Part shown: positions 1,710-56,159 of the stretch, piece by piece | How the letters are laid out: every line of letters starts with the position of its first letter | Position numbering within the stretch: position 1 is the first letter of the stretch | Source: Nitratiruptor sp. YY09-18 | Lineage (GTDB): Bacteria; Campylobacterota; Campylobacteria; Campylobacterales; Nitratiruptoraceae | DNA length: 64,000 nt | NCBI RefSeq assembly: GCF_016593235.1 | Contig: NZ_AP023065.1 | Location: 186,001-250,000, forward strand | Direction of reading: 5' to 3' | The notes under the pieces: generated by a model | The model's input: the letters and a program-made list of their open reading frames with translations, nothing else | Told to the model about the DNA's origin: nothing | Database searches by the model: none | Position numbers and translations under genes: made by a program

Positions 1710-2754
1710 AAGTTATTTTGTCCCCATTTTTTATGGCTTTTACACTATCGATGAGGAGCCATCGTAAATTATAATTTTCATCTACACCTTTTTCAAGTTT
1801 ATATATTGATTTCAAGCTTGATGGAATATATATCCATTCATAGCCCCCTTCACCATAATGGATGTAATGTCCATTGATGGAGAACTCTTTATTTTTGATT
1901 TGATTTATAACTTTATTTGGATCGCTTTTTGTAGTAATAATTGGAATAGCATTGATACCGCATGATTTTGGATCTTGACGACATTTTGAGAGTTTGTTTT
2001 CTATTATCTGGTCTACTACTTCTTTTGTATATACTATTTTTGGTGTTCCAGGGAGATTTGCTGTTCCATTTTCATAATCCTCTTCCGAGCCGTATTTGAT
2101 TTGTGATTCACAATTTTGAGATATGCTAGATGAAGAGCTTGTACTTGATTCATCACATGGAAGCCCTGGTATACAAACACTACTACTGCTATCTGTATTA
2201 CTTGCATAATTAGATGACGAAGAGTTGCTGCTTGAAAAATTATAATTATTCTTAGGGTAAAATGTTCCATAAAGTGGCTTAAGAGAATATTTTGCATTAA
2301 CCATAACATAAGCTGCCTCATCAGGCGTTCCAAAATAATAATCACCAGATATATTAGTACCATTGAAATTTAAATAATACCAATCAGCATTTTCAGAATA
2401 TTGTGAAAATTGAGCAGCGCAAAACAATTGATATTCATTAGTCATATATTTTGCACATGCCATTGGGTTTAAAATTCCTTCGGTTGTTTTTCGCATTCCT
2501 AAAATTTTTTTACTCTGATTATCATAACGAATAAAATATAGTGTGTCTGTATAGTTTTTATTTCCATACTGATAATATACAATAGCATACCCTCCAATAT
2601 ATTTTGATGCCTCATAGGGAGAAATATCGATATTATTACGAATATATGAATGAGCATGCACACTTTTTGAGTAAATATCAATTGCCTTTGTAGGATTAAT
2701 AGTATCCGAGAACAATAAAGAGTAGAGTAGTCCTATAATTGCAATTAGTCTCAT
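1696..2754 (-). CDS. Exported serine-rich protein, unknown function
   Basis: A 352-residue protein with an N-terminal signal-like segment (MRLIAIIGLLYSLLFS). A body rich in Tyr and Asn comes next, then a serine-rich linker at about residues 170-215 containing CIPGLPC, and a C-terminal part to 352. The linker suggests two extracytoplasmic domains joined by a flexible stretch. It is transcribed alone, toward the phage-like genes, from an AT-rich upstream region (2755-2816). I do not recognise a family. Confidence 0.6.
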   Translation of the reverse strand: MRLIAIIGLLYSLLFSDTINPTKAIDIYSKSVHAHSYIRNNIDISPYEASKYIGGYAIVYYQYGNKNYTDTLYFIRYDNQSKKILGMRKTTEGILNPMACAKYMTNEYQLFCAAQFSQYSENADWYYLNFNGTNISGDYYFGTPDEAAYVMVNAKYSLKPLYGTFYPKNNYNFSSSNSSSSNYASNTDSSSSVCIPGLPCDESSTSSSSSISQNCESQIKYGSEEDYENGTANLPGTPKIVYTKEVVDQIIENKLSKCRQDPKSCGINAIPIITTKSDPNKVINQIKNKEFSINGHYIHYGEGGYEWIYIPSSLKSIYKLEKGVDENYNLRWLLIDSVKAIKNGDKITFTTP

Positions 2755-2816
2755 ATTTATTCCTTAAAATTAAATTATATAAGATATTAATCTATCAAAC
2801 TTTAAATCCATCTTAA

Positions 2817-3082
2817 TTATAATTCATTTAAAAACTCCTCCCACCATTGCAGCAGATGCATTCTCTCTCCAAAAAATCACTGCGCATATAAGCTCTTGTG
2901 ACACTGCTTCCTATTTGATGGTGCAGTTGCGCTTCAATGACTTCTGCACTCATGCCATGCTCTTTTTGATGCTCATAGCAAATGGTACTGAAGCTTGAGC
3001 GCCATCCATGAGCGTTGTAATTGGTGATGCCAAGCCTTTTGTGCGCCACATTGAGAGTGTTTTCTGACATCTTCTTCCCATA
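2817..3082 (-). pseudogene. Tyrosine recombinase (integrase) C-terminal remnant
   Basis: The minus strand encodes the catalytic end of a P4-type phage integrase: GKKMSENTLN, AHGWRSS (HxxR motif), EAQLHH, and AYMRSDFLE with the likely nucleophilic Tyr. The N-terminal core is gone; an in-frame TGA at 3083-3085 ends the reading. A second lesion lies in a GA repeat at about 2861-2870. The long frame runs into ECICCNGGRSF, while a shifted frame restores the normal ending RMHLLQWWEEFLNEL with a stop at 2817-2819. The gene is therefore truncated and frameshifted. Integrases of this type sit beside the tRNA they use as target, which fits tRNA-Ala 180 bases away. Confidence 0.85.
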
Positions 3083-3263
3083 TCACCTGATTGAGTATGG
3101 TTAGCCTCATGAAAGAGGCTCAAATAGATTATACTCATTCCCATACACAAATTGCACAAAGATTAACAGATGGTTTAGTAAATAAATCGAGAAATAAAAT
3201 ATCATAAGAAGCGCTATCTCATGGGGATTTTATAAAAAAGGGTGATGAATATGGAGAAGCTAT

Positions 3264-3339
3264 TGGTGGAGCATACCGGGATCGAACCGGTGACCTCCAC
3301 GCTGCCAGCGTGGCGCTCTCCCAGCTGAGCTAATGCCCC
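3264..3339 (-). tRNA. tRNA-Ala (anticodon GGC)
   Basis: The reverse complement folds as a full cloverleaf: acceptor GGGGCAT/ATGCTCC, anticodon stem CCACG/CGTGG with loop CTGGCAG (GGC), T arm with GGTTCGATCC, and an encoded CCA at 3264-3266. Its 3' end faces the integrase remnant, making it the probable integration target of the element to its left. Confidence 0.95.
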
Positions 3340-3392
3340 TTGGATGTGCTATTATAGCAAAAGGGACAAACTGTAAGCAAATGAACAAGTAT

Positions 3393-3752
3393 TCATATTT
3401 GTTTGAGCGCGACATAGAGCCAGAGACAGAGTGTAGCAAATAGTGAGAGCATGACTGCCGCAGCTCCCATATCTTTAGCCTCTTTAGCAAGAGGATGGAT
3501 ATCAGGCATTGCAAGATCTACCACACGTTCAATTGCGCTATTGAGTAGCTCTACTATAAGAGGCAAAAAGAGTGAAAATTGTAAAATAGCTCTTTGAGAT
3601 AGTGGTAGAGGGAGCATCCAAAAAGCAATACTTAAAATAATAAATAGAAACACTTCTATACGAAAACTCATCTCTTGCTTAAGTGCTGCAATGAGGCCGC
3701 TTAAGGCGTAGCGAGCATTTTTAAAAAGATGATATTTGGGTTGATTTCTCAT
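3393..3752 (-). CDS. dgkA: Diacylglycerol kinase (DagK type)
   Basis: A 119-residue inner-membrane protein with three hydrophobic segments and the family signature ELLNSAIERVVD (residues about 67-78). It phosphorylates diacylglycerol to phosphatidic acid, recycling lipid left by periplasmic glycan synthesis. Length matches the family (about 120). Its ATG overlaps the stop of the upstream PP-loop gene in an ATGA arrangement, implying translational coupling in a dnaG, PP-loop, dgkA transcript. Confidence 0.9.
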   Translation of the reverse strand: MRNQPKYHLFKNARYALSGLIAALKQEMSFRIEVFLFIILSIAFWMLPLPLSQRAILQFSLFLPLIVELLNSAIERVVDLAMPDIHPLAKEAKDMGAAAVMLSLFATLCLWLYVALKQI

Positions 3753-4738
3753 TTGATAAGATACCTTTGTGCTTCAGCTTTGCTTGGGAATGGAGAAGCT
3801 GTGACTCTCTTATCTCCTATCACTACTTCATAGCTCTCTTCAGGCCTTGCTTTAGAGTATGTCAGTGCAATCTTAACAGCCAACTCTTTGTCTTTTTTTG
3901 ATGCATTTTTGTGTAGGAGGCTTACTGGCCCTGGAAGAGGAAGAGTAAAGAGTATATATTTGGTTTGATGTATGTTTTTGATTTTTTCATTCTCCTCTTG
4001 ATTGCGACTCACTACAAGCTTAGCACCATCTGGCAAGCGAAAGTGGCGTCCCCACTTGAGCACATCGATATCCTCTACATCAAAAGTATCATAAGTGATA
4101 TGATCTTTTATCTTTTTGCTAAAGTGTTCATCAGTAAGCAAGCATCCTCCACTTGGACTCTCATAATTTTCTATTCCCCACTTTTTGGCTAGCTCCATCT
4201 GCACTTCGCGACTGCGCCCACTAATACCTAGGAGTTTCTTTCTATTTACCCACCCTTTTTGCTCTGGAATTGTTGGAGGGAGGAGTTTTGCACTGAGGGG
4301 TCTAAGGATAAAACCATCTGCACTAGAGAGATTCTCTACCTTTTTGAGTGCATCAAAGCGCTGACTCATTGGTCGCTGTCCAACCACTTCACCACTTATG
4401 ATAAAATGTGCATCATATTTAGGCAGCAGCGCTTTTGCTATACGAATCATATTGGCATGGCAGTCGATACATGGATTAAAGTTTTTGCCATAGCCATACT
4501 TTGGATCAAACAAAATCTCTTGGATGAATTGGTCGCGTATATTGACTATCTCTAGTTTTGCTCCTATTTTTTTAGCAATATCTTGAAGATACTTTTGCTT
4601 CTCCTCTTCAGCTTTCCCTCCAAAACCTGTATCAAAATGCAGACCTATTACCTCTATACCTTGCTCTATAAGTAGTTTCATAGCCAAAAGACTATCCAGC
4701 CCTCCACTAAAGAGGGCTAATGCACGAATTTTACTCAA
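3749..4738 (-). CDS. PP-loop ATPase, MnmA/ThiI-like tRNA thiolation enzyme
   Basis: 329 residues. SGGLDS (11-16) is an N-type PP-loop for ATP adenylation. NPCIDCH (about residues 88-94) and SGGCLLTD (about 197-204) place cysteines roughly where MnmA-type thiouridylases keep their catalytic pair. The C-terminal third (from about 255) contains GPVSLLH and TYSKARPEESYEVVI and looks like an added RNA-binding module, possibly NFACT-R/DUF814-like; that part is tentative. The likely role is sulfur transfer to a tRNA base, with exact target unknown. It overlaps dnaG by 8 bases and dgkA by 4. Annotators often call such genes MnmA or ThiI; neither name is certain. Confidence 0.65.
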   Translation of the reverse strand: MSKIRALALFSGGLDSLLAMKLLIEQGIEVIGLHFDTGFGGKAEEEKQKYLQDIAKKIGAKLEIVNIRDQFIQEILFDPKYGYGKNFNPCIDCHANMIRIAKALLPKYDAHFIISGEVVGQRPMSQRFDALKKVENLSSADGFILRPLSAKLLPPTIPEQKGWVNRKKLLGISGRSREVQMELAKKWGIENYESPSGGCLLTDEHFSKKIKDHITYDTFDVEDIDVLKWGRHFRLPDGAKLVVSRNQEENEKIKNIHQTKYILFTLPLPGPVSLLHKNASKKDKELAVKIALTYSKARPEESYEVVIGDKRVTASPFPSKAEAQRYLIK

Positions 4739-6365
4739 TGATCATCTCTCCTCTTTTAAGTTTTATAATATTCTCTTTGTATTTGCGAATCAGATAGCTT
4801 TTTTGCTCAAATGGTATGTTTGAATGGGTTAACTGCTTGATCTTATTTTCATAGTATTTTATCAAAAAAACTAATAGTTCTTTATGGAGATTTTCCTCAT
4901 CAAATGTAATAATTCCATCATCAAGCAAGATTTCACGAATTTTTGGATGTTCAAGGTTTTGCTCTAAAGCTAGGCGAAACTCCTCTTTATGGTAGATGAT
5001 ATGTTTGATATCTATAATATCAAGTACTGTATCGATGAGATACGGGTGTACAAGCATCGTTTTGATAATGCTAAGCTCCTTGGCATCACGAGTCTCGAGA
5101 GAAGCTGGTTGGGTAGTTTGCTGCTTTTTAGGCTGTAGCTGTACTTTTGAGGGCAAAATATTTAAAAGTGCAGCGAGATAGTCACGATACTCTTCAGCGA
5201 CCAATGGAGGGAGAGTTTTGAGATACTCTATACCTTCAAAGAGTGCCTTTTGCTTCTCTTTTGGATTTTGCAAATCGTATGTTTTTGTAATAGTTTCCAA
5301 GACAAATTGTATAAATGGTTGTGGATGAGAAAAAAGCTCATGCAGTTCGCTCTGTTTTCCTTGTACCACCATGTCAGCAGGATCGAGTCCTTGCGGAAAG
5401 ATCACAACTCCCCCGTCAATATCGTGGGAGCTAAGTAGCTTAGAGGCTTTGAGAGCAGCGTTGATCCCAGCTTTGTCCCCGTCATACGCGAGAATTACTC
5501 TAGGCTCACCCCGCGTAAGAAGCGGAAGGTGCCCGGCAGTAAGAGCAGTGCCAAGCGTTGCTACAGCTGTATCAAAGCCTCCTTGATGGAGCATTACCAC
5601 ATCCATATACCCTTCACATACGATTATCAGCTTCTTTTTAAATATCTGCTCTTTTGCTATATGGTAGCCGTAGAGGATTTTTGATTTGTGGAAGAGTTTG
5701 GTCTCAGGTGAGTTGAGGTATTTAGCAGGATGGTTGGTGATGGTGCGTCCACCAAAACCAACAAGAGCACCTTTTGGCGAAAATATAGGAAAAGTGATGC
5801 GCTCTATCATACGGGCATAGACTCTCTCCCCTTCTTGTGCCAATATACCAGCCTGCAAGGCATCTTGAAAAGGGATGAGGTGAGATTTGAGATATGCTAG
5901 CTGACTGGCTGAATCTGGCGCGTAGCCGAGGGAGAATTTTTCGATACTCACACTGCTGACCCCTCTCTCCTTGAGGTAGCCAAGAGCTTGTTGATTGTGC
6001 AAAAGATTTGATTTGTAAAACTTATTTATCTCTTCCAAAGCTTTAAAAAGCGGTGCAAGAGAGCTTTGGCCCTGGGTATGTACCAAAGAGAAGTTGTACA
6101 TAGAGGCAAGTTTTTCAATGGCTTCAGGGTAGGAGAGCTTCTCATAATCCATCACAAACTTTATTGCATCGCCCCCGGCACCACATCCAAAGCAGTGGTA
6201 TATCTGCTTAGCAGGGGAAACTACGAAACTAGGTGTATCTTCATTGTGAAAGGGGCACAAAGCCTTGTAGTTGGTGCCAGCCTTTTTGAGTTCTATATAA
6301 TTGCCTATTACATCGACAATATCAACGATGTTTTTAAGTTGTTCGATTGAGGCTTTATCTATCAT
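4731..6365 (-). CDS. dnaG: DNA primase
   Basis: 544 residues from the ATG at 6365 (MIDKASIEQLKNIVDIVDVI), the standard primase N-terminus. A start at 6473 would run through the divergent promoter region and add 36 unconserved residues. A zinc-ribbon follows (C37, H40, C58, C61: CPFH and HCFGCG). The TOPRIM catalytic core has EGYMDVV and AYDGDKAG, and a C-terminal helicase-interaction domain is less conserved. It makes RNA primers for lagging-strand replication with DnaB. A minus-strand TATAAT sits only 6-11 bases upstream of the start, so the mRNA may be leaderless. Confidence 0.95.
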   Translation of the reverse strand: MIDKASIEQLKNIVDIVDVIGNYIELKKAGTNYKALCPFHNEDTPSFVVSPAKQIYHCFGCGAGGDAIKFVMDYEKLSYPEAIEKLASMYNFSLVHTQGQSSLAPLFKALEEINKFYKSNLLHNQQALGYLKERGVSSVSIEKFSLGYAPDSASQLAYLKSHLIPFQDALQAGILAQEGERVYARMIERITFPIFSPKGALVGFGGRTITNHPAKYLNSPETKLFHKSKILYGYHIAKEQIFKKKLIIVCEGYMDVVMLHQGGFDTAVATLGTALTAGHLPLLTRGEPRVILAYDGDKAGINAALKASKLLSSHDIDGGVVIFPQGLDPADMVVQGKQSELHELFSHPQPFIQFVLETITKTYDLQNPKEKQKALFEGIEYLKTLPPLVAEEYRDYLAALLNILPSKVQLQPKKQQTTQPASLETRDAKELSIIKTMLVHPYLIDTVLDIIDIKHIIYHKEEFRLALEQNLEHPKIREILLDDGIITFDEENLHKELLVFLIKYYENKIKQLTHSNIPFEQKSYLIRKYKENIIKLKRGEMIIE

Positions 6366-6371
6366 TGCGCT

Positions 6372-6384
6372 ATTATAGTATAAT
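6372..6384. promoter_or_regulatory. Back-to-back -10 boxes for dnaG and the LapB-like gene
   Basis: ATTATA at 6372-6377 is TATAAT on the minus strand, facing dnaG. TATAAT at 6379-6384 is on the plus strand, facing the TPR gene. The boxes are separated by one base. Both would start transcription very close to their start codons. No clear -35 boxes are seen. Confidence 0.55.
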
Positions 6385-6402
6385 TTCGCAAAAGGAGCTT
6401 CG

Positions 6403-7380
6403 TTGGACTTTTTGCTAGCATACAGAGATCCTCTTTTTGGCCTTTTAGTATTTTTTGGTCTCATCTTTATCATCTCCTTTTTTAGCTACTCTTGGTCGAT
6501 TTTGAAATTCAAAAAGCAGTCATCTTCACTAGAAGAGTTTTTCAATCGCTATACCCACAAAGGAGCAATTAATGAGCTCTTTGATGAGTATGACCAAAGA
6601 AAACTTCTTATGCTTTTGGCAAACTCGTTGAAAAAAGAGGGTGATTTTGAAGGAGCAATTGCTATCTATTCCAAACTCAAAGAGCAAAGCAATATGCAAG
6701 AGAGGCTCTTCATCCTCCAAGAACTTGCTGATCTGTATAAAGAGGCTGGATTTTTGCAGCGGAGCAAAGAGATATATGAAGAGATTTTGCGCTATTCACC
6801 CAAAAACAAAGAGGTTCTTGAAAAGCTTATGATTTTGTATGAGAAGCTGGGCCTATATAACGATGCTTTGGAAGTCTCCAACATTTTAGACCTCATTGGA
6901 ATCAAGAGTCCCCATGCTCTCTACCTCCAAGCTGTGATTGCAACACAAAATAGTGACATACCGGCTCTCATGCATCTTTATCACAAGGAGCCTAGACTTG
7001 TTAGAGTCATTTTCGAGTGGTTCTTTCGCTATGCTCCCAAGGATGCTTGGAAAAACTTGCGCCAAGATGATTATCTTGAGGTGATAGATATTTTATGGTT
7101 TTTGCCCAAAGAGCATAGCAAAACCGATTACCCCCTCCTTGAGCAGCTCTATAGCGCCAAAGGGTATATTAACAAAGCAAAGAATAGTGATATTTTTGAG
7201 TTAGATATTCTCCTGCACTATCCAAAAGCGCAGCTTGATTTTGAATATATGTGTCAAAGTTGCAAAAATATCTTTCCCTTTTCTTTTACGCGCTGTCCCA
7301 AATGCGGATCGGTCTATGCTCCAAAGGTTGAGTTAGTAATATCAAAAAGAGGTAGTGATGAAGAGAGTTTTGCTTTTTAG
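6403..7380 (+). CDS. LapB/YciM-like TPR protein with zinc ribbon
   Basis: 325 residues from a TTG start preceded by AAAGGAG. An N-terminal membrane segment (about 8-32) anchors the protein. A cytoplasmic helical TPR array follows (about 60-260). The protein ends with a rubredoxin-like ribbon, CQSC...CPKCGS (about 284-304). This order matches LapB/YciM, which in enterobacteria tunes lipopolysaccharide synthesis by controlling LpxC turnover. Whether the same role holds here is inference. The 3' end overlaps rnhA by 23 bases. Confidence 0.75.
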   Translation: MDFLLAYRDPLFGLLVFFGLIFIISFFSYSWSILKFKKQSSSLEEFFNRYTHKGAINELFDEYDQRKLLMLLANSLKKEGDFEGAIAIYSKLKEQSNMQERLFILQELADLYKEAGFLQRSKEIYEEILRYSPKNKEVLEKLMILYEKLGLYNDALEVSNILDLIGIKSPHALYLQAVIATQNSDIPALMHLYHKEPRLVRVIFEWFFRYAPKDAWKNLRQDDYLEVIDILWFLPKEHSKTDYPLLEQLYSAKGYINKAKNSDIFELDILLHYPKAQLDFEYMCQSCKNIFPFSFTRCPKCGSVYAPKVELVISKRGSDEESFAF

Positions 7381-7780
7381 TGACGGATCGAGCCTGGGCA
7401 ATCCTGGCCCTGGCGGATACTGCGCAATTTTGCGCTATAAAGATACCGAAAAGGTTATAAGTGGAGGTGAGCCCCACACTACCAATAACCGCATGGAACT
7501 TAGAGCCGTCATAGAAGGGCTCAAAGCTCTCAAAGAGCCTTGCGTAGTAGATATCTACAGTGATTCAAACTATGTAGTGCAAGCAATCAATCAGTGGCTA
7601 GCGGGCTGGATCAAGAAAGATTTCAAAAATGTCAAAAATCCTGATCTGTGGAAAGAATTTCTAGAGGTTGCAAAACCGCATAAAATTAGAGCCTTCTGGG
7701 TCAAAGGTCATGCAGGGCATGAAGAGAATGAAAGATGTGATAAAATAGCAAGACAAATGGCACAAAATCAAAAAGCATAA
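7358..7780 (+). CDS. rnhA: Ribonuclease HI
   Basis: 140 residues from ATG 7358; a GTG one codon earlier is also possible. It cleaves RNA in RNA-DNA hybrids. The acidic active-site residues appear in SDGSSLGNPGPGG, NRMELRAV and YSDSNYV, with a final acidic position in ENERCDKIA. Tryptophan- and lysine-rich WVKGHAGHEEN is the usual substrate-contact segment. The start lies inside the preceding TPR gene, so the two are translationally linked. Confidence 0.93.
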   Translation: MKRVLLFSDGSSLGNPGPGGYCAILRYKDTEKVISGGEPHTTNNRMELRAVIEGLKALKEPCVVDIYSDSNYVVQAINQWLAGWIKKDFKNVKNPDLWKEFLEVAKPHKIRAFWVKGHAGHEENERCDKIARQMAQNQKA

Positions 7781-7781
7781 T

Positions 7782-7813
7782 ACTCCCCATCTGCTTCGAA
7801 GCAGCTGAGGAGT
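7782..7813 (+). terminator. Hairpin between rnhA and rnc, terminator-like
   Basis: ACTCC (7782-7786) pairs with GGAGT (7809-7813), enclosing the perfect palindrome CTGCTTCGAAGCAG (7791-7804). It is followed by GTTTTG. It could be a weak terminator, or an RNase III-type processing site upstream of rnc itself. Confidence 0.55.
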
Positions 7814-7837
7814 GTTTTGCAGATCTGGGAGCGATGA

Positions 7838-8518
7838 ATGCAAAAACTGCAAGAGTTTGAGAAAAGCCTTAGATATACCTTCAAAAACAAAGAACTACTC
7901 AAAGAGGCACTTACCCACAAAAGTTACAAAAGTCCTGTCAATAATGAGAGATTGGAATTTTTAGGCGATGCCGTACTTGATCTCATTGTGGGGGAGTATC
8001 TTTATAAAAAACTTCCAAAAGCAAATGAGGGGGAACTTTCAAAGCTCCGTGCATCTCTCGTAAACGAAGAGGGGTTTGCAAAGCTAGCAAACAGGCTCAA
8101 TATTGGTGATTATATCTTCATATCCCAAGCTGAGGAGAACAATCACGGCCGCAGCAAGCCAAGCCTCCTTTCTAATGCTTTTGAGGCGGTAATGGGAGCG
8201 ATATATCTTGAAGTTGGGCTTGAAAAGGTCAGAGAGATAGTGCTGGATCTTTTAGAAAAAGAGTATCCAAAGATAGATCTTGGCACTCTCTTTAAAGATT
8301 TCAAAACTGCTTTGCAAGAGTTTACCCAAGCGCGCTTTGGTGTTACACCACAATATAAACTGCTTGGAGCCACAGGTCCAGATCACAAAAAAGAGTTTGA
8401 GGTAGCTGTGATGCTTCATGATGAGGAGATAGCTACTGCAAAAGGACGCAGTAAAAAATCTGCCCAGCAAGAAGCTGCAAAGATCGCTTTGCAAAAACTA
8501 AAGGCTGAAGATGAATAG
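7838..8518 (+). CDS. rnc: Ribonuclease III
   Basis: 226 residues, ATG preceded by GGGAG. The catalytic domain carries the signature [16 protein letters not shown] (about 38-53) and the second metal-binding glutamate in [14 protein letters not shown] double-stranded RNA-binding domain occupies about 155-226 and ends with [16 protein letters not shown]. It processes rRNA precursors and other duplex RNA. Stop overlaps aroC by 8 bases. A strong hairpin just upstream is a candidate site for self-cleavage, as known for E. coli rnc. Confidence 0.95.
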
Positions 8519-9587
8519 TTTTGGAATAAAATTTCGCTTTACTACTTTTGGTGAGTCTCACGGCAAAGCGATAGGGTGTGTGGTAGATGGTGTTCCTGCA
8601 GGACTTAAAATCGATGAAGAGTTTATCCAAAGTGAGCTAGATCGCAGGCGTCCTGGCAAAAGTAAATTTGCAACTGCAAGAAAAGAGAGTGACAAAGTAG
8701 AGATCCTTAGCGGCGTCTTTGAAGGTAAAGCTACAGGGACTCCAATAAGTATGGTGATATTTAATAAAGATCAAAAAAGCCGCGACTACTCCAATATAAG
8801 AGATATTTTTCGCCCAGGGCATGCAGATTTTACATACTTTCATAAATATGGGATCAGAGACTATAGAGGTGGTGGACGCAGTAGCGCAAGAGAGACTGCT
8901 GCGCGTGTGGCTGCAGGAGCAGTAGCGAAGCTGCTATTAAGAGAATTTGGTATCGAAGTAGAGGCTGGCGTAGTTGAGGTAGCAGGCATTAAAGCCAAGC
9001 AGTTTGATTTTGCGTATGCAAGAGGGAGCGAGATATTTGCCCTTGATCCAGCAGTAGAAGAGCAGCAAAAAGAGGCGATATTGAAAGCAAAAGAGGCTCA
9101 CGATAGTGTAGGTGGAGTTGTCTTAGTCACAGCTCGTGGAGTACCTACAGGACTAGGTGAGCCTATCTATTACAAACTCGATGCAGTACTTGCTGAAGCT
9201 CTCATGAGTATCAACGCAGCAAAAGCCGTTGAGATTGGTAATGGGTGTGAAGCTAGCCGCCTTATGGGCAGTCAAAACAATGATGAGATTATCGCTGAGG
9301 GTTTTGCGAGTAACAATTCTGGCGGTATTTTAGGCGGAATTAGCAACGGAGAAGAGATAGTAGCGCGCATCTACTTCAAACCAACCCCTTCAATTTTCCA
9401 AAAGCAGCGCTCCATTGATACAGCAGGTAATGAGGTAGAAGTAGAGCTCAAAGGACGCCACGATCCTTTTGTGGCTGCTCGTGGAAGTGTGGTAGCTGAA
9501 GCGATGATGGCTTTGGTGCTTGCAGATATGCTTTTGTTGGGTGCTACAAGCAAACTTGAAAATCTTCAAAAAATCTACAATGCATGA
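8511..9587 (+). CDS. aroC: Chorismate synthase
   Basis: 358 residues, near the usual 360. It converts EPSP to chorismate using reduced FMN. Family signatures are GESHG near the N-terminus, [14 protein letters not shown], and [18 protein letters not shown]. It overlaps rnc upstream and the DedA gene downstream by 8 bases each, so the block rnhA-rnc-aroC-dedA is tightly packed. Confidence 0.96.
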
Positions 9588-10176
9588 TATTGTTACTTGG
9601 ATAGTCAATCTTGTAGGAGATCTTGGCTACATTGGCATCTTTGTGATGATGTTTTTGGAGAGTTCCTTTTTTCCTTTTCCTAGTGAAGTTGCGATGGTAC
9701 CGGCTGGTTATCTTGCGAGTAAGGGGGAGATGAGTCTTTTGGTCGCATGGCTTTCAGGCGTTGCTGGAAGTTTAGCAGGAGCACTTTTTAACTACTACCT
9801 TGGTCATAAGCTTGGACGCCCCTTTTTAGAAAAGTATGGAAAATATCTCTTTTTGAAAGAGAAGTCTTTGAAAAAAGTGGAAGATTTTTTTGCAAAATAT
9901 GGGCATCCAAGCACTTTTTGGGGTAGACTCATTCCTGGAATTCGCCAATATATCTCACTGCCTGCTGGTATTGGTCGTATGAAACTTACCGCTTTTGCTT
10001 TTTATACATTTTTAGGTGCTGGATTGTGGTGTGGCATTTTGCTCGTTCTTGGCTATTTTATTGGTGAGAATGAAGAGCGTATTAGATCTGCAACGCATCT
10101 TATTATTGCAATTGTTATGCTTTTGGTGGTAGGAGTATTTTATTACTACTATCGCAAAAACAAAAAGAGCCAATAA
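9580..10176 (+). CDS. DedA-family membrane protein
   Basis: 198 residues from ATG 9580 (MHDIVTWIV). It has several membrane segments and the family hallmarks: [26 protein letters not shown] and the motif [22 protein letters not shown]. DedA proteins are thought to act as lipid carrier flippases, including for undecaprenyl phosphate; which substrate applies here is unknown. Fused reading from 9520 would cut into aroC and adds unconserved residues, so it was rejected. Confidence 0.88.
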
Positions 10177-10195
10177 TAGGTGCAAAGGAGCTAAA

Positions 10196-10402
10196 ATGAA
10201 AATAGCAGATGTGGCACAATATGCTACTGTAAAAGCTACGCACCAGACAAAAGAGCAGATTGCGGTGAGTCTTCTTAAAAAGAGTATGGAGCAGACAAAG
10301 CAGATGATGGAAGAGCTTGTAAAAAGAGTCTCCAGCCTCCAAAAAATGAGAAAGGCACACTTAGTCTCTATGCTTGATCATCCTCCTCGTATGGGAGGCT
10401 AA
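10196..10402 (+). CDS. Small helical protein, possibly YjfB-like
   Basis: 68 residues with an AAGGAG box ahead of the ATG. The segment TKEQIAVSLLKKSMEQTKQMMEELV resembles small putative motility-associated proteins of the YjfB type, but the match is from memory and weak. It follows the DedA gene by 19 bases, and its 3' end overlaps that of the convergent coiled-coil gene by 35 bases. Confidence 0.5.
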   Translation: MKIADVAQYATVKATHQTKEQIAVSLLKKSMEQTKQMMEELVKRVSSLQKMRKAHLVSMLDHPPRMGG

Positions 10403-11618
10403 GCAGCTCGATATGTCCTATGGCATTGCCAGCAATGCCTTTAATGGAGCCGTAGAGAGAGATAGTACTATCGAGCACCTTTTGCAGCTGTTTCTCGCGC
10501 TGCTTCCAAAGTCGCTGCATCGCTCTTTTTTCCTTATCAAGATCCTCTTGCATCTGTGTAAAACCCTCTACAATCGCTTCGATTTGCATCTTAAACTCAT
10601 TTGATGTGAGGTAGCGATAGAGCAAACTCATCTTGTCACTGCGATTTTGCATGGAACGTGTTGTAAGAGCTAGCTGGATGATATGCTGGCGCAAAATGAA
10701 GCTCAAAGCCTTAAACTCCTCAAAGCTACATATCCAAATCCCATCGATAAGCCCCATACGCTCCATATCTTTTGGCATTGCTTCAGTGACGATTACTCCA
10801 ATATCGGCACCAATTTGGCGCATATCGGTTTTGAGTTTTTCGATCCAGCCCTTTTGAAACTCCTTGGTACGTTTGCTCTCATAGTAGATTTTGCCACAGT
10901 TTGCTAACTCTCGTGTATTGACAATTTGCAGGCAATCTGCCCCACGCTGCCCTTTTTTGATCTCTTCAATGGTATCGAATGGGAACTGGTTTTGGAGGTA
11001 CTCTTCTATTGCTAGCTCTTGCACCTCACCTTGATGCTGTTGGGAGGTGAGTTCTGCTTTTCTCTGCGCCTCAGCAAGCTTGGCTTTGAGATCTTTAAGC
11101 TGCTTCTCTTTCTCTTTGAGTTTGAGCTCACTCTCTTGTGCTATCTGCTTTGCAAGACGCTCTTTCTCTTTGGCAAGCTCTTCATTGAGCTCTTTTTGTG
11201 CCTGAAGTCGTGCTTGCTGTATGGCTTCCTCTTTTTGGCGCTTGAGCTTTTCTATCTCTATTTTTGCTTCATTGAGCTCTTTGACCTGGTTGCTCTTTTC
11301 TTGGAGCTCTTTTTTGAGATTTTCTATGATACTTGCTTGCTCGTTTGCAATTTTTTCTTTGAGCTCTTGCTCAAGTTTTATACGTTCTTTTGCCAAAGCC
11401 TCTTGCGCTTTTTGTGCTACTTTTGCTTCTATTGCAGCCTCTTTGGCTTTGATCTCTTCTTGCTGGGCTTTGAGTTTGGCCAGCTCGGCTCTATAGGCTT
11501 GTCTGTGTTCTTCTATCTCTTTTTGTAGTTTTGCCTTGGCAGCTTTTTCTATCTCTTCATAGAGTGTTTGGTTGATATCTATTTCGTAGCCGCAGTTTGG
11601 ACATTTAATAGTGTGCAT
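10368..11618 (-). CDS. DUF2130-type coiled-coil protein
   Basis: 416 residues from ATG 11618 (MHTIKCPNCGYEIDI), preceded by GGAG; the in-frame start 18 bases upstream lies ahead of that box. CPNC near residue 6 starts a short metal-binding-like motif. A very long charged coiled coil follows at about 20-205, rich in Glu, Lys, Gln and Ala. The conserved C-terminal domain is about 205-400, with GQRGADCLQIV, YYESKRTKEFQKGWI and GVIVTEAMPKDM, a layout suggestive of a restriction-endonuclease-like fold. This matches the uncharacterised DUF2130 family. No partner gene is adjacent. Confidence 0.8.
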   Translation of the reverse strand: MHTIKCPNCGYEIDINQTLYEEIEKAAKAKLQKEIEEHRQAYRAELAKLKAQQEEIKAKEAAIEAKVAQKAQEALAKERIKLEQELKEKIANEQASIIENLKKELQEKSNQVKELNEAKIEIEKLKRQKEEAIQQARLQAQKELNEELAKEKERLAKQIAQESELKLKEKEKQLKDLKAKLAEAQRKAELTSQQHQGEVQELAIEEYLQNQFPFDTIEEIKKGQRGADCLQIVNTRELANCGKIYYESKRTKEFQKGWIEKLKTDMRQIGADIGVIVTEAMPKDMERMGLIDGIWICSFEEFKALSFILRQHIIQLALTTRSMQNRSDKMSLLYRYLTSNEFKMQIEAIVEGFTQMQEDLDKEKRAMQRLWKQREKQLQKVLDSTISLYGSIKGIAGNAIGHIELLSLPYEEDDQA

Positions 11619-11679
11619 TGGCTCTCCTCGAGGCATTTTAATACAATTATAGTAGATTTAGTGCAACAAATTGCATAAA

Positions 11680-12228
11680 TTAAAAAAGTGTTGGTTGCAA
11701 GGCTTTGGGACGAAAGCTTTTACGATGAATAGGAGAGAGGCCATACTTTTTCATAGCTTCTATATGCTCTTTTGTACCATACCCTTTGTGTTTACAAAAG
11801 CCATACTCTGGATAGAGCCTATCCATTTCGCACATGATACGATCTCGCGTGACTTTTGCTAAGATTGAAGCTGCCATTACTTCTTTTACTGTTTGATCTG
11901 CTTTGATAACTGGCTCAACCTTTTCAACGCCGAATTTGGAGTTGCCATCAAAAATATATTTTTGTGCTTTAAGTGCATTGAGAATCTCTTTGAGTCCTTG
12001 GGTGATACAAGCTGAAATTCCTTTTTGATCAATTATTTCATTATTAATGATTACAATTTTGTATTGTGTGGCATTGATGATTTTTTCATAGAGCTTCTCT
12101 CTCATTTGTGCTGAGAGTTTTTTTGAATCATCAAGTTTATAAACTCTTTTGATAAAAACCACGCCAGCCATCACCAAAGGTCCTGCCAACGGCCCCCGCC
12201 CCGCTTCATCAATACCGCAGATAGTCAT
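11680..12228 (-). CDS. rnhB: Ribonuclease HII
   Basis: 182 residues. It removes ribonucleotides embedded in DNA. The N-terminus ICGIDEAGRGPLAGPLVMAGVV has the DEAGRG active-site motif, further acidic residues lie in FDGNSKF and ASILAKVTRDRIM, and HKGYGTKEH is typical. Shorter than the E. coli enzyme (198) but within family range. It is transcribed alone, divergently from the exported-protein cluster. Confidence 0.95.
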   Translation of the reverse strand: MTICGIDEAGRGPLAGPLVMAGVVFIKRVYKLDDSKKLSAQMREKLYEKIINATQYKIVIINNEIIDQKGISACITQGLKEILNALKAQKYIFDGNSKFGVEKVEPVIKADQTVKEVMAASILAKVTRDRIMCEMDRLYPEYGFCKHKGYGTKEHIEAMKKYGLSPIHRKSFRPKALQPTLF

Positions 12229-12305
12229 ACATACCCTTATAGATTAAGATAAAATTAATAAATAAAGTTCTATTATTAAGTATATATATTCAAAAAGAAG
12301 TCATA

Positions 12306-13184
12306 ATGTTGCGTTTATCTATTTTTCTTTTCCTTATTATATCTACTCTTTTTGCTTGCATTTTTCCTCCAGATAGAGTGGTTATTTGTTTCAATAAAGC
12401 AAGCATACAAATAGCACCAGGAATAAATCAATACAAAAAGGAACTTGAAAAGGATTTAAAAGGGGGAACAGTAACAATTGTGCGGAATGGTTCTGTTACT
12501 TGTATACATATCAAAAAAAGACCGCAGAGATACATTACTGAGATAGTAACAACTCTTGATCTATCTGCATGGTTTGAAAAGAAAGAGTGTATTCGATCTT
12601 GGGAAGCGTTTTATGAGTGTATGAATAAAAAACGGAATAGCAAAGATGAGAAGCTCTATCAAAAACTCGATCGCAACTTTGTAGCAAAGATTATCTGCCA
12701 AGAGGGACAAGAGTGTGATCTTAGTTTTTTGCGATGGGAGTTGCATTGGAATACACCAGGTTATATGCAACTAAAAACAGTCATAGGTCCAGGCGGGTTT
12801 GCATCTAAAGAAAAAGCCAGGAAAAGTCTTGCAAAGATTAATAATCTCTTAAAAAAAGTTCTCTATGGTGCACGATTTCCTCAAAATGCAGATGAAAATT
12901 ATGATGGTTCTACCTATTATGAAAATCATAAAGTGGCGCAATACGATTTTAAAAAAACAGTAGCAAATCTATTACAAAAGATGCAGCACTATAAGATAAT
13001 CTCAGGTATAGATCAAAACGACATAAAGCAGTTAATCTCTTTATCGATTCCAGGTGCAAATATTCTTTATCTGCCTAGAGGGTGTAAAAATCCTTATGGT
13101 GACATAAGCAAGGGAGAGTGGATAGATGTAAGATCTGCTCATGTAGTTTTTGGGAAGTGTCCTGCTGTAGAGATTCTGCGATGA
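12306..13184 (+). CDS. Exported Cys-rich protein, unknown function (first of three)
   Basis: 292 residues. A hydrophobic leader ends in STLFAC, so it may be a lipoprotein or an ordinary secreted protein. Cysteines are spread through the mature part, for example CFNK, CIHI, ECIRSWEAFYEC, ICQEGQECD, RGCKN and GKCPAV, which suggests disulfide-bonded extracytoplasmic folding. The gene is followed 10 bases later by another exported-protein gene, then a third. I recognise no family. Confidence 0.6.
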   Translation: MLRLSIFLFLIISTLFACIFPPDRVVICFNKASIQIAPGINQYKKELEKDLKGGTVTIVRNGSVTCIHIKKRPQRYITEIVTTLDLSAWFEKKECIRSWEAFYECMNKKRNSKDEKLYQKLDRNFVAKIICQEGQECDLSFLRWELHWNTPGYMQLKTVIGPGGFASKEKARKSLAKINNLLKKVLYGARFPQNADENYDGSTYYENHKVAQYDFKKTVANLLQKMQHYKIISGIDQNDIKQLISLSIPGANILYLPRGCKNPYGDISKGEWIDVRSAHVVFGKCPAVEILR

Positions 13185-53580: not shown

Positions 53581-53863
53581 GGTCATTAAGACCCACATTA
53601 CTGACGAAAAAACTATCAAAGAGACTCTCCATAAGGAGGGTTTCTTTAACATCTTCACTTGGCATGATGAGCCAAATACGCATTATCCAGTCCATACCCA
53701 TCCCAACTATGAAGTACGTTGGGTGATTGATGGTATATTAGAAATTACCCAAGATGGAAAAACTATAAAACTTGAGCCAGGTGATCGTTTAGAGAGTGAG
53801 CCTCATACTCCACATAGCGCTTACACACCCACAGGGGTTACTTACGTATGTGGGTCCCGGTAG
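53573..53863 (+). CDS. Small cupin protein running into tRNA-Arg
   Basis: 96 residues from ATG 53573. [22 protein letters not shown] and [18 protein letters not shown] supply the two cupin motifs with metal-binding His and Glu, so a single beta-barrel domain. Substrate unknown. The last three sense codons and the TAG stop (53861-53863) lie inside tRNA-Arg, which starts at 53854. Translationally linked to fusA by overlap, which is odd for an accessory enzyme. Confidence 0.8.
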
Positions 53864-53930
53864 CTCAGCAGGATAGAGCACAGGATTCCTAATCCTGAGG
53901 CCGTGGGTTCGAATCCCGCCCGGGACACCA
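53854..53930 (+). tRNA. tRNA-Arg (anticodon CCT)
   Basis: Acceptor GTCCCGG/CCGGGAC, anticodon stem CAGGA/TCCTG with loop TTCCTAA, T arm GTGGGTTCGAATCCCGC, encoded CCA. Its 3' end is the left attachment site of the micro-island. Confidence 0.96.
53897..53927. repeat. attL, 31-bp repeat inside tRNA-Arg
   Basis: Perfectly repeated at 55477-55507. Covers the end of the anticodon region, the T arm and the 3' acceptor strand, the classic crossover site of tRNA-targeting integrases. Confidence 0.9.
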
Positions 53931-53987: not shown

Positions 53988-54008
53988 GGTGTCATCTTGG
54001 GTGTCGTC
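53988..54008 (+). repeat. Tandem GGTGTC repeats next to attL
   Basis: GGTGTCATC at 53988-53996 and GGTGTCGTC at 54000-54008, starts 12 bases apart. A third copy, GGTGTCCTC, is at 55383-55391 near attR. Could be integrase arm-type sites. Confidence 0.5.
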
Positions 54009-54035
54009 CTTTTAATAGTGGAGTAAGTGTACGAA

Positions 54036-54149
54036 ATGCAAAAGATAATAAGCAAAACGATAATTTTAATTGTGTTGTCTTTGGTTATAGTGGATTTATA
54101 TTTTATAAATTCATATAAGATCCGATGCCATGGTGTTTTAGGTTGTTGA
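54036..54149 (+). CDS. 37-residue single-pass membrane peptide (island)
   Basis: MQKIISKTIILIVLSLVIVD then LYFINSYKIR and a C-terminal CHGVLGC. One hydrophobic segment (about 8-25) after a basic start. GGAG lies about 12 bases upstream, which is weak. Unrecognised. Confidence 0.35.
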   Translation: MQKIISKTIILIVLSLVIVDLYFINSYKIRCHGVLGC

Positions 54150-54221
54150 TACCAAAAGTTGACTATGTTTAACCCCTTCTATAACCATATAGCTAAAAAA
54201 TATCGGAGCTCGCACTACCCG

Positions 54222-54274
54222 CACTCCTAATCCTCCAGAGAGAACCTAAGTGCTTTAGACTACCATTAGGAGTG
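54222..54274. repeat. 10-bp inverted repeat inside the micro-island
   Basis: CACTCCTAAT (54222-54231) and ATTAGGAGTG (54265-54274) are perfectly complementary, 33 bases apart. No ORF overlaps it. Could be a stem of a small RNA or a protein site. Confidence 0.5.
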
Positions 54275-54373
54275 ATTCCACATGTACCCTGAATTTATTT
54301 CCTTTGGCTTTGATATGTTGTAAGAATCTCTTGCATATCATCAAGTGAGATATGTTGATCTTACGGCGCAGTA

Positions 54374-54499
54374 TCAAAGAATAAAAAGAGCCAAGCCTAT
54401 GATTGCGGCTACAATGGCAGGCAATGCGAGGATCACTCCCACTACTACTCCCTCAATAATTCCCTCTATTACTGCTCTTAATGTATTTATGACGCTCAT
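54374..54499 (-). CDS. 41-residue membrane peptide (island, minus strand)
   Basis: MSVINTLRAVIEGIIEGVVV, then GVILALPAIVAAIIGLALFIL. A near-continuous hydrophobic, glycine-spaced helix after a short amphipathic start. It faces away from the plus-strand peptide at 54585; the 85 bases between could hold both promoters. Unrecognised. Confidence 0.4.
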   Translation of the reverse strand: MSVINTLRAVIEGIIEGVVVGVILALPAIVAAIIGLALFIL

Positions 54500-54584
54500 A
54501 CTTTCATTATAGCATGGTATTTTGGACATTCATTTATCACTATATTAATTCTTGAGTATTGTTACATTATAATATAATGATTTT

Positions 54585-54704
54585 ATGAGAGATTTTTTTG
54601 ATGGCTTCAAAATCGGATTATTTGCCCAAATAGCGGGAGTAATAGTTTATGGTATCGGTTTTGTCATTGGTGTTGTCATATCTTTAATTCTTCTTGCACT
54701 ATAA
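54585..54704 (+). CDS. 39-residue membrane peptide (island)
   Basis: MRDFFDGFKIGLFAQIAGVI then VYGIGFVIGVVISLILLAL: a charged, aromatic start followed by one long Gly-rich membrane helix. A TATAAT-like run (54569 region) lies just upstream, with little room for a ribosome site, so it may be leaderless. The composition resembles the minus-strand peptide of the same island. Confidence 0.4.
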   Translation: MRDFFDGFKIGLFAQIAGVIVYGIGFVIGVVISLILLAL

Positions 54705-54841
54705 TGCCTTAGTTTGAAAATGTTAAAAGATCTGTCTAATCTTGTAAAAAGTGGCATTGCTAGATGTTTTTGCTCACCTGTATGGCTAAAGTTTTGGCGT
54801 GGTTCATGCTACTTTCAAGTATCCTATGACATAATTTTAGT

Positions 54842-54970
54842 ATGTGGCAAGTAATTATCTTTCTCATGGTTATTGGCTTCATTATTTTTTTTGTTTGGAA
54901 TAAGAAAGTAAGGATATATTCGCTTATTGCGTTTCTCTTCACTCTTTTTGGATTTGTAAGTGATGATTAA
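54842..54970 (+). CDS. 42-residue two-helix membrane peptide (island)
   Basis: MWQVIIFLMVIGFIIFFVWN, basic turn KKVR, then IYSLIAFLFTLFGFVSDD. Two short hydrophobic helices joined by a positive turn, and an acidic end. Unrecognised; no good ribosome site seen. Confidence 0.4.
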   Translation: MWQVIIFLMVIGFIIFFVWNKKVRIYSLIAFLFTLFGFVSDD

Positions 54971-54977
54971 TCCTTTG

Positions 54978-55188
54978 TCATTTTATGAAGATTTGTGCTG
55001 CAGCTTGTGCAAACCCTGTTTTTTCTCTAGTCATAGGAAAAATATAGTCTTTGACTTTTTCATACTCCTCTAAAGTCAAAACAGCAAACTTTGATTTTCC
55101 TCTGAAGTAACGATAGATTCTTGCCCTTTTTGAGCCCAGCCTCTATTACTTTAATGCCTTTTACCTTGAAATCATTTGTGCTTATCAT
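54978..55188 (-). pseudogene. Frameshifted Phd/YefM-like antitoxin
   Basis: Minus-strand frame 1 from ATG 55188 reads MISTNDFKVKGIKVIEAGLKKG, the N-terminus of prevent-host-death-type antitoxins. A different frame then reads RGKSKFAVLTLEEYEKVKDYI and ends with a stop at 54978-54980. The two halves together match the family layout, so about one base has been lost or gained near 55090-55125. No toxin gene is visible beside it. Confidence 0.65.
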
Positions 55189-55275: not shown

Positions 55276-55476
55276 ATGGCTTGCAGCAGAAGAGAAAATG
55301 TGCTTATAGGATTAAGAAAGGTAGATATTATCTCATTTTATAGGGAGTAAATTTAGTGATTTAGTGTTTAAGTTTTGCAACGGGTGTCCTCTTTTGGTCT
55401 AAAAAAGAGGAATCTCCATAAATACGCTGCTATCAACCAAAATCAATCTTAATTATATCTTAATTTTCCTCATCCG

Positions 55477-55507
55477 GAGGCCGTGGGTTCGAATCCCGCC
55501 CGGGACA
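55477..55507. repeat. attR, 31-bp repeat of the tRNA-Arg 3' end
   Basis: Identical to 53897-53927. Flanks differ on both sides (CCG before, TAT after), so it is a true isolated copy rather than a second tRNA gene. It ends 6 bases before the sodB stop. Confidence 0.9.
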
Positions 55508-55513
55508 TATTCT

Positions 55514-56125
55514 CTATCCCTCTAGCGCAATGGTATCGAGATAGTTTGCATTTGCGAATATATTTGAAGCGCTTTCCCAATTGATGTAAGTATAAAAGTT
55601 TTCTAGATACTTTCCGCGTTCATTTTTATAATCAAGATAATATGCATGCTCCCAAACATCAATTGTTAGCAGAGGAGTTTTGTTATAGCGCAAGGGTGTA
55701 TCTGCACCGGTCGTGTTTTCTATGTGCAAATTGCCCTTTTCATCCATAGTAAGCCATGTCCAACCGCAGCCAAAATTGTTCAAAGCTGCCTGGATAAACT
55801 GCTCTTTAAATAATTCCATCCCGCCAAAGGTATATATAATCTTTTCTTCAAACTCTTTGGAAGGAGAGCATGTTTGTGGTGAGAGGCAGTGCCAATAGAG
55901 GTTGTGATTGAATGTTTGTGCTGCATTATTGAAAATTGCACCATCAGCTTTTTGAATTATCTCTTTGAGCGGTAAATCTTCAAATTGTGTGCCTTGAATG
56001 AGAGCATTGAGCTTCTTAACATATCCAGCATGATGTTTATCATGATGGTAGTGGAGTGTCTCTTGTGAGAGAAAGGGCTCAAGTGCTGTGTAGGCAAAAG
56101 GAAGATCTGGTAATAGGTGTTGCAT
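55514..56125 (-). CDS. sodB: Superoxide dismutase, Fe type
   Basis: 203 residues from ATG 56125 (MQHLLPDLPFAY), with AAGGAG five bases upstream; the longer reading adds ten unconserved residues. Metal ligands in HHDKHHAGYVKKLN, NNAAQTFNHNLYW, and DVWEHAYYLDYKN. NNFGCGWTWL favours the iron form. Converts superoxide to peroxide in the cytoplasm. The 3' end borders the island. Confidence 0.94.
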   Translation of the reverse strand: MQHLLPDLPFAYTALEPFLSQETLHYHHDKHHAGYVKKLNALIQGTQFEDLPLKEIIQKADGAIFNNAAQTFNHNLYWHCLSPQTCSPSKEFEEKIIYTFGGMELFKEQFIQAALNNFGCGWTWLTMDEKGNLHIENTTGADTPLRYNKTPLLTIDVWEHAYYLDYKNERGKYLENFYTYINWESASNIFANANYLDTIALEG

Positions 56126-56153
56126 AGCATCTCCTTTTGGGCGAATATATTTC

Positions 56154-56159
56154 ATTATA
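56154..56159 (-). promoter_or_regulatory. -10 box of sodB
   Basis: ATTATA here is TATAAT on the minus strand. It is part of CATTATAGCT (56153-56162), the left arm of a 10-bp inverted repeat. Confidence 0.55.

Follow-up and report, generated by a model that had tools for sequence, protein, structure and literature searches.

Type I toxins such as AapA, TisB, Hok and Fst are small hydrophobic peptides, and their mRNAs typically have a regulated 5' leader. The peptides analyzed here share with them length, hydrophobicity and a mobile or accessory location, but they show no sequence match, their mRNAs are predicted to be leaderless, and one of them (ORF 2) is poor in charged residues and contains a glycine zipper. 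T4 Imm and P22 SieA exemplify the superinfection-exclusion membrane peptides, which are small inner-membrane proteins of phages or their relatives. The likeness of our peptides to these is a functional analogy only, and no exclusion-family match appeared. At the level of the carrier, the parent elements described below share with P4-like and PICI satellites an accessory slot, a size of ~10 kb, integration at a tRNA 3' end, an integrase, an AlpA-like excisionase and a primase/helicase; capsid genes were not seen in them. Here, however, the host belongs to the deep-sea Campylobacterota, helper dependence is putative, and the copy under study has been reduced by deletion and lacks the core. We found no description of satellites in Nitratiruptor in the open-licence literature. 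Regarding gene starts, ~20 leaderless mRNAs have been predicted in C. jejuni, six of them backed by ribosome profiling (PMC11955535). ORFs 2, 3 and 4 of this study would belong to the same predicted class of Campylobacterota gene starts, with the difference that the predicted leaderless genes here encode membrane peptides of a mobile element.

The tRNA-Arg element and its relatives

We analyzed a 64-kb stretch of the Nitratiruptor sp. YY09-18 genome, referred to as the window. It contains a tRNA-Arg (CCU) gene (53854-53930, plus strand; ARAGORN, Rfam tRNA 71.6 bits) that served as integration target. The 3' part of this gene (attL, 53886-53927, plus strand) recurs as a 42-bp direct repeat at 55466-55507 (attR, plus strand) with 95% identity, and the att-bounded element proposed by an earlier sequence-only reading is thus confirmed. 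The tRNA alone reached the Rfam gathering score, and no further RNA gene was accepted within the region. Two tandem GGTGTC(A/G)TC units at 53988-54013 (plus strand) and a GGTGTCCTC unit at the opposite end of the element (55383-55398, plus strand) are candidate arm-type sites of the integrase; equivalent units are also present at both ends of the related element in G003.

The G003 element, a ~10-kb insert (L021, about 2466-12593), occupies the same tRNA-Arg gene and is closed by the same att repeat. Its genes specify a Phd/YefM antitoxin and a RelE/YafQ-type toxin, a tyrosine integrase, an AlpA-like excisionase, small proteins, and a D5-type primase/helicase with a 282-aa protein encoded upstream of it; an IS is also present. 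Nearest the tRNA it carries a homologue of ORF 2 and a 78-aa membrane protein. The window element spans only ~1.5-1.6 kb between the repeats and still has its two att ends, along with an antitoxin pseudogene and a portion of the cargo slot. The pseudogene is of the Phd/YefM type, frameshifted and truncated (54978-55188, minus strand), and its G003 counterpart (L021 2844-3104) matches PhdYeFM_antitox; the partnering toxin gene is absent from the window element. A DNA match further revealed the 3'-end remnant of a 75-aa HTH gene (54295-54345, minus strand), which is intact in strain SB155-2 (L022 8082-8309). Neither integrase nor replication core is found between 54971 and 55466. Judged by comparison with G003, the window element is an internally deleted remnant of a ~10-kb satellite-like element. 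Since a G003-type integrase was not found in the YY09-18 genome, it is most likely immobile. The G003 element may be immobile too, because its integrase (L021 3390-4495) is split into two overlapping frames; intact relatives of this integrase occur in G002, G006 and G012. The claim that the cargo consists mostly of tiny peptides therefore needs to be qualified. The peptides are present, but their prominence is partly explained by the loss of everything else from the remnant.

The attachment site can be empty, as G001 (strain YY08-10), SB155-2 and G012 have no insert at this tRNA-Arg gene. In G001 and SB155-2 the gene directly after it is response-regulator/CheB-like, and in G012 it is the RNA-binding-protein gene that sits near attR in the window. 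Directly past attR, the window carries an apparent Fe/Mn superoxide dismutase gene (55514-56155, minus strand). Other genes follow the tRNA or attR in G001, SB155-2, G003 and G012, and the dismutase gene does not adjoin the G003 element; it may have inserted independently at this hot spot.

SB155-2 carries a related element at a tRNA-Leu gene; its integrase differs, but it shares ORF 2 with the window and G003 elements and also has the 78-aa gene. The parent elements of G003 and SB155-2 have an integrase, a tRNA att site and their own replication and regulation genes (D5 primase/helicase, AlpA-like excisionase), and no capsid-type genes were seen in their partly scanned ORF lists. An element in G012, whose integrase is related to that of G003 (53%), encodes two membrane proteins, of 177 and 65 aa, between the helicase gene and tRNA-Leu; the gene for the smaller one has TACAAT 6 nt before its ATG. 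Small membrane proteins, in six distinct sequences, occupy the tRNA-proximal (integrase-distal) slot in 4/4 elements read, which is a small sample for a general pattern. The slot also holds the IS in G003 and a small HTH gene in SB155-2. The mobile context suspected from the sequence alone is hence borne out, and the presence of small membrane proteins at the corresponding place in the three related elements fits a cargo role.

The G003 and SB155-2 elements also have a ~60-bp non-coding block in common with the temperate phages NrS-4 and NrS-5 (L021 9983-10044; L022 about 9074-9160; NrS-4, LC545445.1, 21493-21554). G003 and NrS-4 are 85.5% identical over this block (E 5e-9). In NrS-4 it is found in non-coding DNA that separates the terminase from the head genes. 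This short block is a candidate packaging (cos/pac) site shared by satellite and helper, although it may not be one.

Sorting genes from artefacts among four membrane ORFs

Four ORFs of 37-42 codons are indeed present within ~0.95 kb, at 54036-54149, 54374-54499, 54585-54704 and 54842-54970. Each is strongly hydrophobic, with best 17-residue mean hydropathy values of 2.75-3.05. We compared their number with 500 dinucleotide-preserving shuffles of the same 935 bp, using ATG ORFs and a plain hydropathy criterion. Four membrane ORFs were observed, compared to 0.19-0.38 expected at two stricter thresholds, and 0/500 shuffles reached four. For the whole window element, shuffling with ATG starts gave P 0.002 or less for membrane-ORF enrichment. 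Only one of 1260 sliding 1-kb stretches of the 64-kb window contains four such ORFs; the window total is 11, four of which lie in the cluster, and one of the 11 looks like SecE. Because of the shuffle excess and the uniqueness of this 1-kb stretch in the window, the cluster is not a chance effect of A+T-rich DNA; the sequence-only reading, too, had argued against chance. The four ORFs are not equal, however: they comprise one antisense artefact, one real conserved gene and two probable lineage-specific genes. The similarity noted between the two Gly-rich peptides is compositional only, and ORFs 2 and 3 were rejected as paralogues (BLASTP E 1.3).

ORF 1 (37 aa, 54036-54149, plus strand) is, by comparison with its relatives, not a gene, and the view that all four ORFs encode peptides had to be abandoned here. 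It lies on the strand opposite to the gene for the 78-aa membrane protein, over that gene's decayed 5' end. The window retains a remnant of this 5' end (54043-54090, minus strand; 88% match to L021 11922-11969), in which the start codon is now ATT, and the remainder has been deleted. The gene is intact in G003, while that of SB155-2 has lost one base close to the start. Between these two copies we counted 7, 1 and 10 differences at codon positions 1, 2 and 3, a pattern that identifies the strand opposite to ORF 1 as the coding strand. ORF 1 itself is not conserved. Its ATG falls outside the block homologous to G003, and when its frame is read in G003, the start differs and all changes are nonsynonymous.

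ORF 2 (54374-54499, minus strand) encodes a 41-aa single-helix peptide with a GxxxGxxxG motif. The frame opens at 54529, and the 41 residues are counted from a conserved internal ATG. Copies of 41 codons in the window, G003 and SB155-2 align without gaps, and the window copy shares 68% amino-acid identity with each relative. The dN/dS check proposed in the earlier reading gave 0.34-0.39 (NG86, three copies), consistent with purifying selection, and a neutral simulation gave a joint P of 0.0037 for so few replacements with all three frames intact, although the test is weak because it draws on three copies from a single genus. G13, G17 and G21 of the motif are invariant. The structure model shows one helix (residues 3-40, mean pLDDT 94.5) and, being derived from just three sequences, says mainly "helix". 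ORF 2 was found in 3/399 genomes of the order, all Nitratiruptor, and gave no match in phages, plasmids, IMG/VR or the named-species genome collection. A TATAAT box (54506-54511, minus strand) lies exactly 6 nt upstream of its ATG, with the same spacing in all three copies. ORF 2 has stayed intact with this promoter while its neighbours decayed. Conservation across three genomes thus marks ORF 2 as a real gene for a membrane peptide.

The ORF 2 block has an inverted orientation in G003 compared to the window and SB155-2. In SB155-2, inverted copies of a GGGGCTTGCACCACCC-type motif flank the block (L022 7984-8007 and 8925-8948), and G003 carries this motif at L021 11724-11747. Recombination through the motif is possibly behind the inversion. 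We rejected GGGGCTTGCACCACCC as a cassette site, as just three copies occur in 16 genomes, in G003 and SB155-2.

ORF 3 (54585-54704, plus strand) encodes a 39-aa Gly-rich membrane peptide and ORF 4 (54842-54970, plus strand) a 42-aa membrane peptide with two hydrophobic stretches. Both are orphans, with no relative above compositional noise. A match of ORF 3 in G001 (E 0.08) was discarded, since the locus appears to be an unrelated two-component-system region. Matches of ORF 4 (best E 0.003) lie mostly within unrelated longer frames and look compositional, and those in Erwinia phages have E 4. A search for homologues, as suggested by the earlier reading, therefore succeeded for ORF 2 and found no convincing ones for ORFs 3 and 4. 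We count these two as probable genes because of their promoter geometry: a pattern scan located a TATAAT box before ORF 3 (54573-54578, plus strand) and a CATAAT box before ORF 4 (54830-54835, plus strand), each exactly 6 nt upstream of the respective ATG.

An exact TATAAT 6 nt before ATG occurs at 3/2201 ATGs of the window, namely those of ORF 2, ORF 3 and dnaG. The CATAAT of ORF 4 has one mismatch, a match quality with ~1% background in the window. Genome-wide, we counted 33 cases of TATAAT-6-ATG versus 20 for the reversed pattern; these statistics cover the window plus this one pattern count over the genome, and we became aware of the 6-nt spacing only post hoc. The dnaG start lies at window position 6365 (minus strand). 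Several of the 33 sites precede genes that we recognised by eye and take to be dnaG, miaA and response regulator, mobA-like and BamA-like genes. Since dnaG and several other YY09-18 genes share this arrangement, leaderless housekeeping mRNAs are likely. Based on the same geometry, ORFs 2, 3 and 4 are predicted to give rise to leaderless mRNAs.

Possible functions of the membrane peptides

On balance we favor a reading in which the locus is the cargo end of a dead element, with one gene (ORF 2) and two probable genes (ORFs 3 and 4) for membrane peptides from predicted leaderless mRNAs, which may face phages. ORFs 2, 3 and 4 would each have a promoter that sets the transcription start at the A of the ATG. 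Leaderless translation would then lead to a steady, low-level synthesis of small inner-membrane peptides, and the conserved GxxxGxxxG face might allow ORF 2 to self-associate or to pack against another membrane protein. Tentatively, we regard as their most likely use an accessory role by which the satellite would compete with phages, for instance through superinfection exclusion at the membrane. The sequence-only reading, which had suggested a defence or toxin role, is supported in part: the enrichment beyond chance, the mobile context and one peptide with homologues under purifying selection are borne out, and by its own terms of refutation it stands. The peptides may have such a role, but searches of Pfam, PHROGs, PADLOC and NCBIfam matched none of them to a toxin, holin or defence/exclusion family.

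Among the alternatives, the one that survives best is that the remaining ORFs are mere relics, i.e., functionless fossils of a decaying element, with ORFs 3 and 4 arising by chance. The loss of core, integrase and toxin gene, the frameshifted antitoxin, the artefactual ORF 1 and the lack of homologues for ORFs 3 and 4 would all agree with this. However, the shuffle excess combined with a precisely placed -10 box before ORFs 3 and 4 is unlikely to arise by chance, and ORF 2 stands intact with its promoter amid decayed neighbours. We therefore consider the relic explanation unlikely.

A type I toxin-antitoxin system, in which at least one peptide would be a membrane-depolarising toxin silenced by an antisense RNA, is in our view rather doubtful and ranks below the relic explanation. 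Size and hydrophobicity of the peptides fit, and the class occurs in Helicobacter (AapA). The best promoter-like site of the region (TTAACA-17-TATAGT, minus strand, 54726-54698) would even read antisense into ORF 3. Such sites are not above chance, however, with five found versus 6.3 expected in shuffles, and the family searches returned no type I toxin. In particular, a leaderless mRNA, as predicted here, has no 5' leader to regulate, which disfavors a classical system of this type. Holin-like or helper-lysis peptides, with which a satellite would set the timing of its helper phage's lysis or prevent it, are very improbable. The idea would suit small membrane proteins of a satellite-like element that has a block in common with NrS-4/NrS-5, but neither PHROGs nor Pfam gave a holin match, no endolysin or other lysis gene was seen nearby, and a holin would be risky to express from promoters that look constitutive.

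Possibly phage-facing cargo peptides of a dead satellite-like element, made from predicted leaderless mRNAs, remain our preferred reading. In remnants of elements, antisense artefacts can be told apart from genuine mini-genes by comparison with intact relatives together with the exact placement of the -10 box. As a bolder and speculative extension, which we think unlikely to hold as a whole, the elements would form a Nitratiruptor satellite family, possibly of parasites of NrS-4/NrS-5-like phages, and the leaderless small membrane peptides of its dedicated tRNA-proximal slot would act as a new class of phage-exclusion effectors, retained by the host once the remainder of the satellite has gone. 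Nitratiruptor is a deep-sea vent genus with temperate phages in culture, and the analysis provides named, testable genes in it, namely the one for a conserved glycine-zipper peptide of 41 aa and those of a cargo slot that is common to satellite-like elements.
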